Positions 11,812 to 28,513 of a stretch of DNA of 38,755 nucleotides are shown here, in pieces (positions within the stretch are counted from its first letter, which is position 1; the number at the start of each line of letters is the position of its first letter). Under the pieces are notes generated by a model, which was not told where the DNA came from, did not search any database, and saw nothing but the letters and a program-made list of their open reading frames with translations. The stretch covers positions 1 to 38,755 of the forward strand of contig NZ_JAAXLT010000174.1 of NCBI RefSeq assembly GCF_013285555.1. Direction: 5' to 3'. The DNA is from Candidatus Cyanaurora vandensis. Lineage in GTDB: Bacteria > Cyanobacteriota > Cyanobacteriia > Gloeobacterales > Anthocerotibacteraceae. The position numbers were made by a program, and so were the translations under genes.

Positions 11812-11877
11812 GCCCTTTGACAAATCCAGCTCGCTGTAGTAGCATTTGATACGTGAGGAGTTAGATAAGGTCAAGAA

Positions 11878-11924
11878 AACACCCTGGAGTCGAAACACGG
11901 ACAGACGCCCAGGGTGTTTTTTTT
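11878..11924 (+). terminator. Rho-independent terminator
   Basis: AACACCCTGG (11878-11887) pairs with CCAGGGTGTT (11909-11918), followed by an uninterrupted run of T. It would end transcription from the CARDB-like fragment before the metalloprotease gene. Confidence 0.8.
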
Positions 11925-12033
11925 ATGGGAACTTTACTGAATAAAGAGTTCGTAGGTTTGGTAATGGTTATCGCTCTTTCCCTTTGCATAATGGTATTTC
12001 TTGTTACCGAGTACCTTTACGTAAGGTTTTTCC

Positions 12034-21114: not shown

Positions 21115-21978
21115 GTGTCCCTGCTGGATTGGTTTGAAACTCGCAAAAAAGAAGTCCAGTCGCCCGTCCCCCAACCCCAGCAACAGCGGGAAATCGCCGA
21201 GGGTTTGTGGACCAAATGCCGTGGCTGCGGTACCTTGCACTACACCAAAGACTGGGAAATTAATCAGCAGGTCTGCTCTTCCTGTGGCTACCACGCTATG
21301 GTCGGCTGCCGTCAACGCATCGAACAACTGATGGACCCAGACACCTGGGAACCCCTCGATGAGCTAGTGTGCTCGCTGGACCCCCTCCAGTTCACGGATC
21401 TGCGCCCCTATAGCGAACGCATTCGTAAATCCTTGCAGTCCACAGGACTTACTGATGCCGTCTTGACGGGTGTAGGCCGGGTCCTGGGTAAACCCTTGGC
21501 CTTGGCGGTGATGGATTTCTCCTTCATGGGCGGCAGTATGGGTTCGGTGGTGGGCGAAAAGATTGCCCGACTGACGGAAATTGCCACCCAACGCTCTTTA
21601 CCCCTAGCGATTTTCACCGCCTCAGGAGGAGCAAGGATGCAAGAGGGGGTCTTGAGTCTGATGCAGATGGCGAAGACCTCAGCAGCCCTAGAGCGGCACC
21701 GCAGTGCCCGTCAACTCTACATTGCCGTCTTGACCCATCCCACCACGGGGGGCGTGACCGCGAGTTACGCCATGCTCGGCGATGTAACCCTGGCAGAACC
21801 GGGCGCGATGATTGGCTTCACTGGACCGCGCATCATTGAGCAGACCCTCAAGCAAAAGCTCCCCGAGGGTTTCCAGACTGCCGAGTACCTGATGGAACAT
21901 GGCTTTGTGGATATGGTCGTGCAGCGGGCTAAACTCCCGGCGACCCTGGTCCGGTTGTTGAGTCTGCATGGGTACTGA
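21115..21978 (+). CDS. accD: Acetyl-CoA carboxylase carboxyltransferase subunit beta
   Basis: AccD and AccA form the carboxyltransferase of acetyl-CoA carboxylase, making malonyl-CoA for fatty acids. The N-terminal zinc ribbon is present (KCRGCG and VCSSCG; Cys35, 38, 54, 57). The crotonase-like core follows with [38 protein letters not shown] and [11 protein letters not shown]. The length of 287 residues is normal. The start is GTG. The last ~50 bases overlap the end of the convergent CTDH gene. Confidence 0.97.
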
Positions 21979-22342
21979 GGGGTTTTAGGCTCAAGAGTTC
22001 CTTGGCTGAGGCCAAGAGACGCACCCGTAGGTAATCAATCTGCCCGTCTCCTAGCTGGAAAGTCCATTCCACGCGCACCCCAAAAGCCGGAGCCTGCACA
22101 AATCCCAGCACGACGGGAGCCTCGGCTGGACCCGTCACGGTCTCGGGGTGGCAGGTCATCCCTTGGGCTTTGGTGGCAAGATAACGATGAATCGCGCCGT
22201 TACCCTGAATCGGACCGTCCAAGGGGGCATGGAGGATACCCTGGATACCAAACAGGGCGGCTACCTGCTCCAGGCAGCCCCCATTTATCCCCAAGAAGTA
22301 ATCCCGGACCAAAGGCAGGTCCGAGAAGAGAGGATCAACCAC
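21929..22342 (-). CDS. OCP C-terminal-domain homologue (CTDH), NTF2-fold carotenoid-binding protein
   Basis: CTDHs are stand-alone relatives of the C-terminal regulatory domain of orange carotenoid protein. They form carotenoid-binding dimers that can pass pigment to helical carotenoid proteins. The text [22 protein letters not shown] and [13 protein letters not shown] follows the OCP C-domain closely. By my alignment the two residues that hydrogen-bond the keto-carotenoid are kept: Tyr15 (VRDYF) and Trp93 (EWTF). I choose the GTG at 22342, which overlaps the stop of the upstream HCP gene by 8 bases (GTGGTTGA), suggesting translational coupling; a TTG at 22375 is the alternative. The tail after KPL overlaps the end of accD. 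Confidence 0.85.
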
Positions 22343-23036
22343 GTTGGGCAATACCCGAGGGTTCGTTAGGTTCAACCGGGCTGCTGCCCATGCGGTTGGC
22401 GATATCCCGGAAGAAAGTGATCTGTTGCTCGAAGTCGAGGTTCTTCACCGCTTCAAAGGACTTGTTGCCCGCATCCGTGAGTTCATAGCCTTCTGGTACG
22501 CCAGTTACATCGCCGCCCATGCGCTGAGCGATGAGATACCAAATGGCGAGTTTATTGTTCTCGGTTTGGCTGCTGTAGGCACGGCTCAAGGGGATGTCGT
22601 CGCCACGCACGATGGCACGTTGGGCTTCGAGTTGATCATCACCCTTGGCTAAGCTATTGAACTCGGTGAAGAAACCGCTGGCAAGCTCGGTATTCGCCGC
22701 GCCGAGAGCTGCTGGAGTCACGGATTCACCCATTTCACGGTAGAGGAAGTAGAAAACGGCTAGTTTATCGTCCACGGATAACCCATCAAATTGGTTATCG
22801 GAGGAGCGCACGTCTTCAGAGCGGATCTGTTCGGGCGGCACATCGTTCATCAGTTGGTCAACGATGTCAGAAATTTCTTGGGAGGAGACGCCGCTACCCG
22901 TGGCTGGGGCTGTGGTTGTACTCGCGTCGGTATCATAGGCTTGATCGCGGGGATGCTCAACGCCACGGTCATAGGCTTGTTCAACCATTGCCGAGATCTC
23001 TTGCTGGGACTTAACCGGGTCAGTGCTCTGGGTCAT
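22335..23036 (-). CDS. Helical carotenoid protein (OCP N-terminal-domain homologue)
   Basis: Residues about 80-225 match the all-helical carotenoid-binding domain of OCP: DKLAVFYFLYREMGESVTP, then ENNKLAIWYLIAQRMGG, GYELTDAG and LDFEQQITFFRDIANRMG. Such HCPs quench singlet oxygen or phycobilisome excitation when loaded with a keto-carotenoid. The first ~75 residues are an unusual polar extension (QEISAMVEQAYDRG and a similar QEISDIVDQLMNDV), where HCPs normally start near the domain. The ATG at 23036 has AAGG eight bases upstream; a GTG at 23057 is possible. The pair with CTDH forms a split OCP. Confidence 0.88.
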   Translation of the reverse strand: MTQSTDPVKSQQEISAMVEQAYDRGVEHPRDQAYDTDASTTTAPATGSGVSSQEISDIVDQLMNDVPPEQIRSEDVRSSDNQFDGLSVDDKLAVFYFLYREMGESVTPAALGAANTELASGFFTEFNSLAKGDDQLEAQRAIVRGDDIPLSRAYSSQTENNKLAIWYLIAQRMGGDVTGVPEGYELTDAGNKSFEAVKNLDFEQQITFFRDIANRMGSSPVEPNEPSGIAQRG

Positions 23037-23145
23037 GAGTGGTACCTTTTTTGACACAATCTCAAAATAGCTGTTTCATATATACCTCTCCTTCTCTCCC
23101 AAGTTAGACAAGCTTCCGAATCCCTGTGTTATGCTGGGTCAGTGA

Positions 23146-23484
23146 CGCGGGGTAGAGCAGCCTGGTAGCTCGTCGGGCTCAGACCGCAATTCAGGGGCAA
23201 GGGTTTCGTCGAACACTTGCTACACCAAACCTGATTCTGCCATGGGCTGTGCAGGGAGAAATCCTTGTATGAATCCTGCCAAATTCGGGGAAGCCTCTGA
23301 CGGGGTAATCCCGAGCCAAGCCTCAGTAATGAGGAAGGTGTAGAGACTTGATGGCAGGCACCCACACAGGTAATGCTGAGGGTGAAGGGAAAGTCCAGAC
23401 CACAAACTGCGCAAGCAGGCAGCGGAAGCTGTAGTGGTACGCATAACCCGAAGGTCACTGGTTCAAATCCAGTCCCCGCAACCA
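23146..23484 (+). tRNA. Initiator tRNA-fMet(CAU) interrupted by a group I intron
   Basis: Exon 1 is 23146-23179 and exon 2 is 23442-23484; joined they give a 77-nt cloverleaf ending in an encoded ACCA. The acceptor stem CGCGGGG/CCCCGCA has the C1-A72 mismatch of initiator tRNAs, and the anticodon stem carries the three G-C pairs (TCGGG/CCCGA) with loop CTCATAA. The anticodon is CAT once the intron is removed. The D arm (GAGC...GCTC) and T arm (ACTGG TTCAAAT CCAGT) are intact. The insertion point lies between U33 and C34 of the anticodon loop. Confidence 0.95.
23180..23441 (+). ncRNA. Group I intron in tRNA-fMet, ORF-less
   Basis: The 262-nt insert fits group I rules: the 5' exon ends in U (23179) and the intron ends in G (23441). 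Conserved core segments appear in order: P-like ATTCGGGGAAGCCT (23283), Q-like AATCCCGAGCCAAGCC (23307), R-like TGTAGAGACTTGATGG (about 23339) and S-like GAAGGGAAAGTCC (23384). These resemble the cyanobacterial tRNA introns (IC3 type). No homing endonuclease ORF is present. I could not settle the P1 guide pairing by eye. The bases CA flank both junctions, so the exact cut was chosen by the U/G rule. Confidence 0.92.
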
Positions 23485-23493
23485 ACAAAGTAA

Positions 23494-23534
23494 AGTGCCA
23501 ACAGTCTTTCGGACTTGTTGGCACTCTTGCTTTT
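23494..23534 (+). terminator. Terminator of the tRNA-fMet transcript
   Basis: AGTGCCAACA (23494-23503) pairs with TGTTGGCACT (23516-23525), with an inner GTC/GAC pair, followed by CTTGCTTTT. It lies 9 bases after the tRNA end. Confidence 0.8.
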
Positions 23535-24160
23535 ATGGTGTTTAATTACTATTTTCCCATCACTATCGGTATAGAAATGCAACAACCCCAAGTCAATCCC
23601 AACTTGTGTACCGGTCTCTGGCTGGGGTTCTGAGCGTTCTATGGCAATACAGAATTGCACATAGTAGCCATCGGTTCGACGCACTATCCGTACTCTTTTA
23701 ATCTGCTCCACTGCATAGAAACTTAAATCCCTTGTACCGATTAGCCTAAAACATCCTGCATTATTTTTATCGGTGAGGGTTATACGTTTACGGTCGTCAG
23801 ATAACTTCCATCCGGTAGTTTTATATTCTACTGACCGAGTATTTTTCTTGAACTGTGGATAGCCTTTCTTGCCGCGAGTTTGTTTATTGCAGTTATCATA
23901 AAACCTGGAGATAGCAAACCCGCCCGTTCAATACTGGCCTGTCTAGCCTGCGAGTTAAGTTTAGCTGCCCATTCATATTCTTGTGCTAAATCAGGACAGA
24001 GCTTATACAAATCATTCTTATTTAGCCCCTGATTATCCAGCCAATAACGCAGGGCTTTATTACGAATAAATTGAGCCGTACGGATGGCTGCATCTAGCTT
24101 GCCATACTGTTCGGGTTTTCCTTGAAGCTTTGATTGGAGGATTACCCTGGGGCACAGGGA
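23530..24160 (-). pseudogene. IS200/IS605-type TnpB, frameshifted and 3'-truncated
   Basis: The N-terminal part reads TAQFIRNKALRYWLDNQGLN and QEYEWAAKLNSQARQASIERA. After a frameshift near 23920 it continues as AISRFYDNC, TRGKKGYPQFKKN, RSVEYKTTGWKLSDDRKR, then VRIVRRTDGYYVQFCIAIER and GIDLGLLHFYTDSDGK, which is the first RuvC aspartate motif. Everything after that, including the other RuvC residues and zinc finger, is missing: the frame runs into the tRNA-fMet terminator. No tnpA partner remains. TnpB is an RNA-guided nuclease; this copy is dead. Confidence 0.85.
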
Positions 24161-24232
24161 AAGGGTGGGCCGACAACGGCCCACGAACGCTTGAGGAGAG
24201 TCGATAGGCTTCCGTGGCCGGAGGCCATGCCG

Positions 24233-26620: not shown

Positions 26621-27553
26621 ATGCGCGTACCGCAACCGCTTATCATCCTCTCGCCTCCTAGGGGCTTCTCGTCAGTGGTCTCCACGGTCATCGGACAACA
26701 CCCCGAACTCTATGGCTTCCCGGAACTCAATATCTTCCTGGGCGACCAGATGTCCGACATCAAAAATTACTTCCGGGGCACCTATCCAGGGGGCTTGCTC
26801 AGAACAATTGCCGAACTCCACGCTGGCGAACAGACGCTCGCCACGGTCCTGGATGCCTATGCTTGGTTGGAACAACGGTTGGATTGGCCTACCAAAAAGA
26901 TGTACGACTACATCCTCTACTGCATCGCGCCCAAGATTGGGGTCGAGAAGAGCCCGCGCACCTGCACCAAACCCAAACACCTCCAGCGCACTTACGCCTA
27001 CTACCCCAAAGCCTACTACCTGCACCTGACCCGTAACCCGGTCGCCGCCCGTAAATCCATCCGCGAGTTCGCTGAGGCCATGCGCCGCAAACGGGAGAAA
27101 TATTCCGATGCGGAAGCCTACGCTGACAAGATTGCCATGTTTATTCATGACCCGGTGCTGATGATGGTCTGGTACCGGATGCACGACAACATTCTCAAGC
27201 TCACGGCTGAGCTACCCGTGGGCCAGACGATGCGGATTCGCGGGGAGGACGTGTTGTCGGAGCCGGAATTTTATTTGACCCAGTTGGCGGCTTGGATGGG
27301 AATTCGCACCGACGCGGAGGCGATTGAGGAGATGAAACACCCCGAGAACTCGCCCTACGCCTGTCCCGGCCCCGCACCTCTGGCCCCCGGTGGCAACGAC
27401 GGGAAATTTATGCGGGACCCCTACTTGCGGGTGGGCAAGATTAAAGAAGCCTCCGTTCACAAAGAGATTGAGAAAGCCGGCTTGCTCAAAACCTGGGGTG
27501 AAGACTTTTCCAAACGCTTCCTCCGCATGTCCGGCACCATCGGCTATTACTAA
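26621..27553 (+). CDS. Sulfotransferase-family protein 1
   Basis: These enzymes transfer sulfate from PAPS to a hydroxyl or amine of a sugar, lipid, peptide or small molecule. The N-terminal PSB loop for the 5'-phosphosulfate is IILSPPRGFSSVVSTVIGQH. The 3'-phosphate-binding segment is YLHLTRNPVAARKSIREF, with the expected Arg and Ser. The length of 310 residues is normal. It is about half identical by eye to the next gene over the whole length (SPPRGF, FPELN, PKIGVEK, LHLTR, RGEDVLSEP, NDGKFMRDP), so the two are a tandem duplication. The acceptor is unknown. Confidence 0.87.
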   Translation: MRVPQPLIILSPPRGFSSVVSTVIGQHPELYGFPELNIFLGDQMSDIKNYFRGTYPGGLLRTIAELHAGEQTLATVLDAYAWLEQRLDWPTKKMYDYILYCIAPKIGVEKSPRTCTKPKHLQRTYAYYPKAYYLHLTRNPVAARKSIREFAEAMRRKREKYSDAEAYADKIAMFIHDPVLMMVWYRMHDNILKLTAELPVGQTMRIRGEDVLSEPEFYLTQLAAWMGIRTDAEAIEEMKHPENSPYACPGPAPLAPGGNDGKFMRDPYLRVGKIKEASVHKEIEKAGLLKTWGEDFSKRFLRMSGTIGYY

Positions 27554-27574
27554 CCATCTACCCCAAACCCAACC

Positions 27575-28513
27575 ATGGCTGACAAAAGACTCCTGATTAT
27601 CCTTTCGCCGCCCCGGGGTTTCACATCGGTGGTCTCGACCATGATTGGGCAACACCCGGACCTCTACGGCTTCCCAGAACTGAACTTGTTCTTTAGGGAC
27701 ACGATTGAGGAGACGATGTATCTCCACGTCAAGTCCCGGAAAGAGGGCCTGTTCCCCTACCCCGATGGTCTCCTGCGGACCCTGGCTCAACTCCACGACG
27801 GCGTGCAGACCACTTGGACGATTTATAAAGCGGTCACTTGGCTAGAGAAACGGCTCCACTGGACCACCAAAAAACTCTACGACTACCTCCTCGATCTAAT
27901 CCATCCCAAGATTGGCGTCGAGAAAACCCCCGGTACCGCCACAAAAATCGCCAACATTGAGCGGGCACATCTCTACTATCCCCAAGCCCATTTCTTGCAC
28001 TTGACCCGCCATCCCATCTCCGCCAAACGCTCCATGGAAGAGTTCTACGAGGAGAAGCGCAAGCTCGAAGAGAAATCCAAAGTAGATACCGTTTCCCAAG
28101 TCTTGCCCCTAGAGATTGTAGATACCCGGATGTGGTACCACATGCACCGCAACATCTATAACTACACCGACACGATGGCCTTGGGTCAATGTATGCGGGT
28201 GAAGGGCGAGGACCTGCTCTCGGAGCCGGATCTATACCTCAAGCAGGTCGCTGAATGGCTGGGGGTCAGGAGTGACCCCGAGGCGGTCGAGGCGATGAAA
28301 CACCCGGAGACCTCCCCCTACGCCAAGGTCGGTCCGTTCCCAGCTTGGGCCGGGAACGACGGTAAATTTATGCGCGACCCCAAGCTCAGACCAGGCCGGA
28401 TCAAGGAACCTTCTTTGAAAGGCGAGATCGAACACGGTAATATGCGCGGGGTCCTCGGTGAGGACTTCATGGCTCGCTTCTCCACACTCACACGGAAAAT
28501 GGGGTACTGCTGA
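27575..28513 (+). CDS. Sulfotransferase-family protein 2
   Basis: A 312-residue paralogue of the preceding gene, 21 bases downstream. It keeps the PSB loop LLIILSPPRGFTSVVSTM and the 3'-phosphate-binding segment FLHLTRHPISAKRSMEEF. Differences concentrate in the middle (residues about 45-65 and 165-190), where acceptor specificity usually lies, so the two probably act on different positions or different substrates, or form a heterodimer. The stop TGA overlaps the next gene's ATG by one base (TGATG). Confidence 0.87.
   Translation: MADKRLLIILSPPRGFTSVVSTMIGQHPDLYGFPELNLFFRDTIEETMYLHVKSRKEGLFPYPDGLLRTLAQLHDGVQTTWTIYKAVTWLEKRLHWTTKKLYDYLLDLIHPKIGVEKTPGTATKIANIERAHLYYPQAHFLHLTRHPISAKRSMEEFYEEKRKLEEKSKVDTVSQVLPLEIVDTRMWYHMHRNIYNYTDTMALGQCMRVKGEDLLSEPDLYLKQVAEWLGVRSDPEAVEAMKHPETSPYAKVGPFPAWAGNDGKFMRDPKLRPGRIKEPSLKGEIEHGNMRGVLGEDFMARFSTLTRKMGYC

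Follow-up and report, generated by a model that had tools for sequence, protein, structure and literature searches.

Group I introns of the cyanobacterial tRNA-fMet gene have been known since the 1990s and are reportedly the subject of work by Biniszkiewicz et al. in 1994 and Paquin et al. in 1997. The intron described here shares with these introns the gene, the insertion in the anticodon loop and the intron class. Passages in two later papers cite work from the 1990s on them (PMC8450103, PMC3610870), and the tRNAscan-SE 2.0 paper names Gloeobacter violaceus as a carrier and counts 36 bacterial genomes in which fMet or Ile2 predictions are missed owing to group I introns (PMC8450103). A passage in PMC12641178 cites a 2025 preprint on tRNA introns of Patescibacteria. 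The fMet intron of Synechocystis PCC 6803 (655 nt, PMC1995217) belongs to the same family but encodes the PD-(D/E)XK endonuclease I-Ssp6803I, whereas our copy has no ORF and no such endonuclease was detected in its genome. The group I introns of tRNA-Leu(UAA) in cyanobacteria and plastids likewise interrupt a tRNA anticodon loop; however, they sit after U34 rather than between U33 and C34 and form a separate clade (100/100). Introns of tmRNA also occupy a structural RNA, and a systematic search extended the range known for them from 2 phyla to 21 (PMC11915505). They lie in the T-loop of tmRNA rather than in an initiator tRNA, and mostly lack endonuclease genes, which 4.1% of them have. In the papers that could be searched, few of them from subscription journals, we found no description of how far the fMet intron family extends.

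We identified a tRNA-fMet initiator gene, split in two, at 23146-23484 on the forward strand of the window (the whole 38,755-nt stretch of DNA analysed). Its parts, and a hairpin that follows, are:

23146-23179, forward strand: 5' exon of tRNA-fMet (34 nt, tRNA positions 1-33), ending GGGCU; identical or near-identical in relatives
23180-23441, forward strand: group I intron (262 nt), ORF-less, starting CA and ending in the omega-G; assigned from RF00028, structure, covariation and empty-site comparison
23442-23484, forward strand: 3' exon of tRNA-fMet (43 nt, C34 to the encoded CCA), beginning CAUAACCCG; assigned from the spliced cloverleaf
23493-23534, forward strand: terminator-like hairpin 3' of the tRNA, with a weak T tail (fold -25 kcal/mol, z -5.8)

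With the insert removed, the spliced sequence folds into a 77-nt cloverleaf. This bears out the perfect initiator cloverleaf of the original prediction, as the hallmarks of an initiator are all present: a C1xA72 mismatch, three G-C pairs in the anticodon stem, A11-U24, the anticodon CAU and an encoded CCA. The insertion between U33 and C34 of the initiator tRNA also places the intron in the bacterial tRNA-fMet intron family. Since both joints carry CA, the sequence alone leaves the cut position free to shift by up to two bases. The rules for group I introns (a U preceding the 5' site and a G ending the intron) support the cut between U33 and C34, and so do related genomes. The split gene of genome G003 and the intact genes of G004 and G006 have identical 5' exons and almost identical flanks upstream and downstream, and differ at the U33/C34 point by one 266-nt insert. 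Judged by this comparison, the insert in these relatives is one clean insertion, and the occupied and empty alleles fix the boundaries. The placement of a 262-nt insert exactly between U33 and C34 was thus correct to the base.

ARAGORN run without introns found no tRNA in the window. Run with introns, it called the split gene tRNA-Leu(CAG), because CAG stands at the start of the intron, and the split fMet genes of relatives were misread as tRNA-Ser(CGA). Genomes with such a gene can therefore seem to have no initiator tRNA. The hairpin at 23493-23534 was not flagged by a simple terminator scan; inverted repeats that resemble it were seen 3' of the gene in the loci of relatives.

Several neighbouring features were identified. 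Broken pieces of an IS605-type transposase (23463-24184, reverse strand; PF01385 on one piece) lie directly beside the tRNA 3' end. We considered an IStron, in which a group I intron and an insertion sequence form one element, and rejected it: the IS605-type fragment is truncated, lies on the other strand and is situated outside of the intron, at and beyond the 3' exon. On the other side of the gene (21929-23057, reverse strand), a protein with the N-terminal domain of the orange carotenoid protein (OCP; PF09150, 1.1e-49) adjoins a small protein weakly matching the SnoaL/NTF2-like type, an arrangement as in split OCP pairs. Further away are a Cyano-1 RNA (11847-11925, forward strand, 43.1 bits) and two adjacent similar genes (26621-28513, forward strand), the first of which matches sulfotransferase PF13469.

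Identification of the insert as a group I intron, proposed originally from the letters of the DNA, is upheld by the Rfam model and by a complete set of helices, P1 to P9, with covariation. The Intron_gpI model (RF00028) matches 23227-23413 with 62.4 bits (E 1.2e-13, cut-off 50), and nothing else in the genome assembly matches this model. No candidate ORF was found within the 262 nt, in agreement with the ORF-less intron predicted. The elements, all on the forward strand, are:

23177-23181: 5' strand of P1 (exon G31, C32 and U33 plus intron C1 and A2), pairing with 23243-23247
23243-23247: internal guide sequence UGGGC; GGGC is present in 114/114 introns with a located P3/P4 anchor
23250-23269: P2 hairpin with a GAAA loop; 8 of 8 pairs changed on both sides
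23275-23281: 5' strand of P3, pairing with 23352-23358; 6 of 7 pairs changed on both sides
23284-23315: P4-P5; standard pairs 94.5% in P4 and 74.4% in P5, the inner P5 as drawn being weak
23316-23338: P6 and P6a with a GUAA loop, from the family alignment
23345-23348: 5' strand of P7 (GACU), pairing with 23392-23395; 100% standard, the guanosine-binding helix by homology
23359-23384: P8; 99.4% standard pairs
23399-23438: P9, enclosing P9.1 and P9.2, from the family alignment
23407-23418: P9.1 with a GCAA loop; covaries
23419-23432: P9.2 with a GGAA loop; covaries

We drew the structure on the window copy and examined it across 110 distinct, aligned fMet introns. All of the drawn pairs in the window copy are standard, with none non-standard. 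Over the 110 introns, 88.9% of pairs are standard as drawn and 31-40% after a shift of the partners by one to three columns, a comparison that favours the drawn pairings since they were drawn on the window copy; the two-sided changes lie in other sequences. Many such changes were found among the 110 sequences in P2, P3, P6a, P8, P9, P9.1 and P9.2. The P3-P8 core with its P3/P7 pseudoknot is present, with standard pairs at 93.5% (P3), 100% (P7) and 99.4% (P8) across the 110; two-sided changes in the core are mainly those of P3 and P8, and P7 is nearly invariant. At columns conserved in at least 97% of introns, the window copy departs from the family at 0 of 74, and by this measure the intron shows no sign of decay. 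The GNRA loops on P2 and P9 hint at a possible assignment to subgroup IC3.

P1 as drawn has only five pairs, which we count against our explanation. The first four pairs are standard in 110/110 introns and the fifth in 82/110. The first intron base is C or U in all, and pairs with GGGC of the guide along with G31, C32 and U33; the second is A or G throughout, faced by a U in about three quarters of introns. Introns start with CA, CG, UA or UG in 115/115 fMet introns, as P1 requires, and the U.G wobble at the 5' splice site (U33) is found in 110/110. The terminal G, at 23441 in the window, is present in 115/115, by construction, as the search pattern demanded it.

We consider it almost certain that this tRNA-fMet gene carries a group I intron from the fMet family long known in cyanobacteria, on whose splicing initiation would depend and which would now be an inherited passenger. 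The precursor tRNA would fold into the P1-P9 ribozyme, with the guide UGGGC paired to exon bases G31, C32 and U33 and the first two intron bases, and U33 held in the U.G wobble. A guanosine bound at P7 would cut on the 3' side of U33. UG of the guide, once released, could then pair with C34 and A35 of the 3' exon to form P10, after which U33 would attack behind the terminal G and the exons would join to give the anticodon loop CUCAUAA. Catalysis and the splicing steps are drawn from established group I biochemistry, as is the P10 exchange, which we only infer because the bases of the 3' exon do not vary. If no other initiator gene is present, every translation start would depend on this reaction. 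An intron that encodes no endonuclease would be a passenger inherited with its host, in a family that is mobile elsewhere.

The suggestion that this might be the only initiator tRNA gene holds within the assembly, a 234-contig draft that is 93.8% complete. Blastn of the spliced tRNA against the assembly (E<=10) returned just the two exons and short partial matches rather than an intact gene, and the tRNA model and pattern identified no second initiator gene there. The 39 Rfam tRNA matches in the genome represent 38 anticodon types, a nearly full set; two other tRNAs with CAU are present, both without initiator features, and tRNA-Val(UAC) was not found in the draft. In the class, a split fMet gene was identified in 27 of 390 genomes and an intact one in 341, and in 26 of the 27 no intact gene was found beside the split one. 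The one genome with both (G008) is 8% contaminated, and the proteins encoded upstream of its two loci are only about 90% alike. We thus read it as two mixed strains with two versions of the locus rather than as a genuine double carrier. Three single-contig genomes, G001 (from the family of the window genome), G003 and G005, have the split gene only, G005 with an additional 36-nt 3' fragment. Translation initiation very probably depends on splicing of the intron in this organism; as the assembly is 93.8% complete, this is very likely and short of proven.

Should the split gene be a dead copy with an intron that does not splice, an intact initiator gene would have to lie in the unassembled part of the genome. 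The assembly is indeed a draft, 93.8% complete, and it yielded no match for at least one tRNA that would be expected (Val-UAC). However, the intron has no broken pair and no departure at the 74 near-invariant positions, the exons match the genes of relatives, and both the single-contig genome of the same family and the other carriers have the split gene without a detected intact one (26 of 27), so that we regard a dead copy as highly improbable. Given 234 contigs, a foreign intron-bearing contig could also have been joined by assembly or binning, but the gene sits inside a 38.8-kb contig, its exons are 97-100% matched to those of relatives in the order (families f1 and f3), and the intron falls within the clade of the order (98/96). 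This artefact we consider the least probable explanation of all, and hardly credible.

The fMet intron is present in six of nine genomes of the order Gloeobacterales. No tRNA-Leu(UAA) introns were detected in the nine, and that gene is intact in the window genome; a tRNA-Leu-type intron was in any case rejected, given its different site and clade. The fMet introns of two families, f1 and f3, fall together in a single clade (98/96), and the window intron is about 78-84% identical to these relatives over its full length. The tree test does not reject a union of the two f1 copies (p-AU 0.78) or the addition of the f2 copy. The intron core of another genome, labelled 'Gloeobacterales cyanobacterium' (L089), is identical to that of G008. 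Recent lateral acquisition of a working intron, which competes with the descent part of our explanation only, would account for the patchy occurrence across the class (27 of 390) and for the mixture within one genus, where G003 and G005 have the split gene and G004 and G006 the intact one. Set against this are the supported clade of f1 and f3 introns, the acceptable union of the two f1 copies and the lack of an endonuclease gene in the intron, with no I-Ssp6803I relative detected in the genome in a search that had no positive control. Thus recent acquisition is unlikely, although a real contender. As the copy falls in the supported clade of its own order and lacks a homing endonuclease, which sets it apart from mobile introns, local vertical descent with losses is, on the sequences compared, the simpler reading. 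The lateral movement expected originally fits the family as a whole, and this copy less well.

We scanned a collection of about 85,000 species with a 29-base pattern of the split fMet 3' exon, and recovered at least 115 stretches. Nearly all of the matches listed have the 5' exon GGGCU upstream, at 207-349 nt, at about 510-700 nt or, once, at 952 nt; L060, L086, L123 and L140 are not established as introns. Among the matches listed, the same position is occupied in genomes or MAGs assigned, by record title, to Cyanobacteriota and about a dozen other phyla (roughly 12-14): Omnitrophota, Chloroflexota and Rhodothermota, which recur, and Bacteroidota, Nitrospirota, Pseudomonadota, Uhrbacteria, Thermodesulfobacteriota, Vulcanimicrobiota and single cases of others. 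Many of the genomes are MAGs, and single cases may be binning errors. The initial view that such introns occur in a scattered set of cyanobacteria was right as to cyanobacterial carriers and too narrow as to range. No split fMet gene was matched in viral contigs. In a tree, 114 fMet introns are parted from 17 tRNA-Leu introns by a 100/100 branch, the separation that the proposed phylogeny was to examine; L187 was left out of the final tree, as it forms a very long branch inside the fMet clade when included.

Long members of the family (about 600-695 nt) mostly have an ORF like that of I-Ssp6803I, and the one such ORF that was checked matches PDB 2ost (E 1.5e-66, PF11645). The 952-nt intron (L105) encodes a LAGLIDADG endonuclease (PF03161, 1.4e-13), not a PD-(D/E)XK enzyme. 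Other unusual sequences were noted. An fMet-like gene of Shewanella (L123) has an anticodon loop short by two bases, with GGG directly before CATAACCC and no intron. Chloroflexota-type fMet inserts (L091, L093, L125) form a divergent group with unusual 3' ends (e.g., GAGCGTTTG and GAACCGG). L187, in genome G004 with its intact fMet gene, is a group I-like intron of 199 nt that scores 33.4 bits, under the cut-off, and interrupts a tRNA read as Arg(UCU). The 36-nt fragment of G005 (C1:1288901-1288936, in L201) duplicates the 3' end of tRNA-fMet and lies about 2 kb away from the split gene, which itself ends without CCA; the fragment looks like the attachment site of an integrated element.

One could go further, and view the fMet intron as an old bacterial element, spread over a dozen phyla, that predates a deep split in the order and is retained in sole initiator genes because its guanosine-dependent splicing couples initiator tRNA supply to the GTP pool. 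We consider this reading very unlikely. Our preferred reading, of a functional intron inherited within the order, adds a new host genome, from the family that we take to be that of Anthocerotibacter, to an already known kind of intron, and the host belongs to a little-studied, early-branching lineage. Here an essential and probably single-copy gene would rely on a predicted ribozyme in an early-branching order of cyanobacteria. In practical terms, the misreading by ARAGORN hides the initiator tRNA in genome annotation. Nearly identical relatives that naturally have or lack the intron at this site would allow its cost to be tested cleanly. As a simple 29-base pattern finds introns at one position in many phyla, fMet introns are more than a cyanobacterial curiosity, and it is the wide range of the family that merits further attention.
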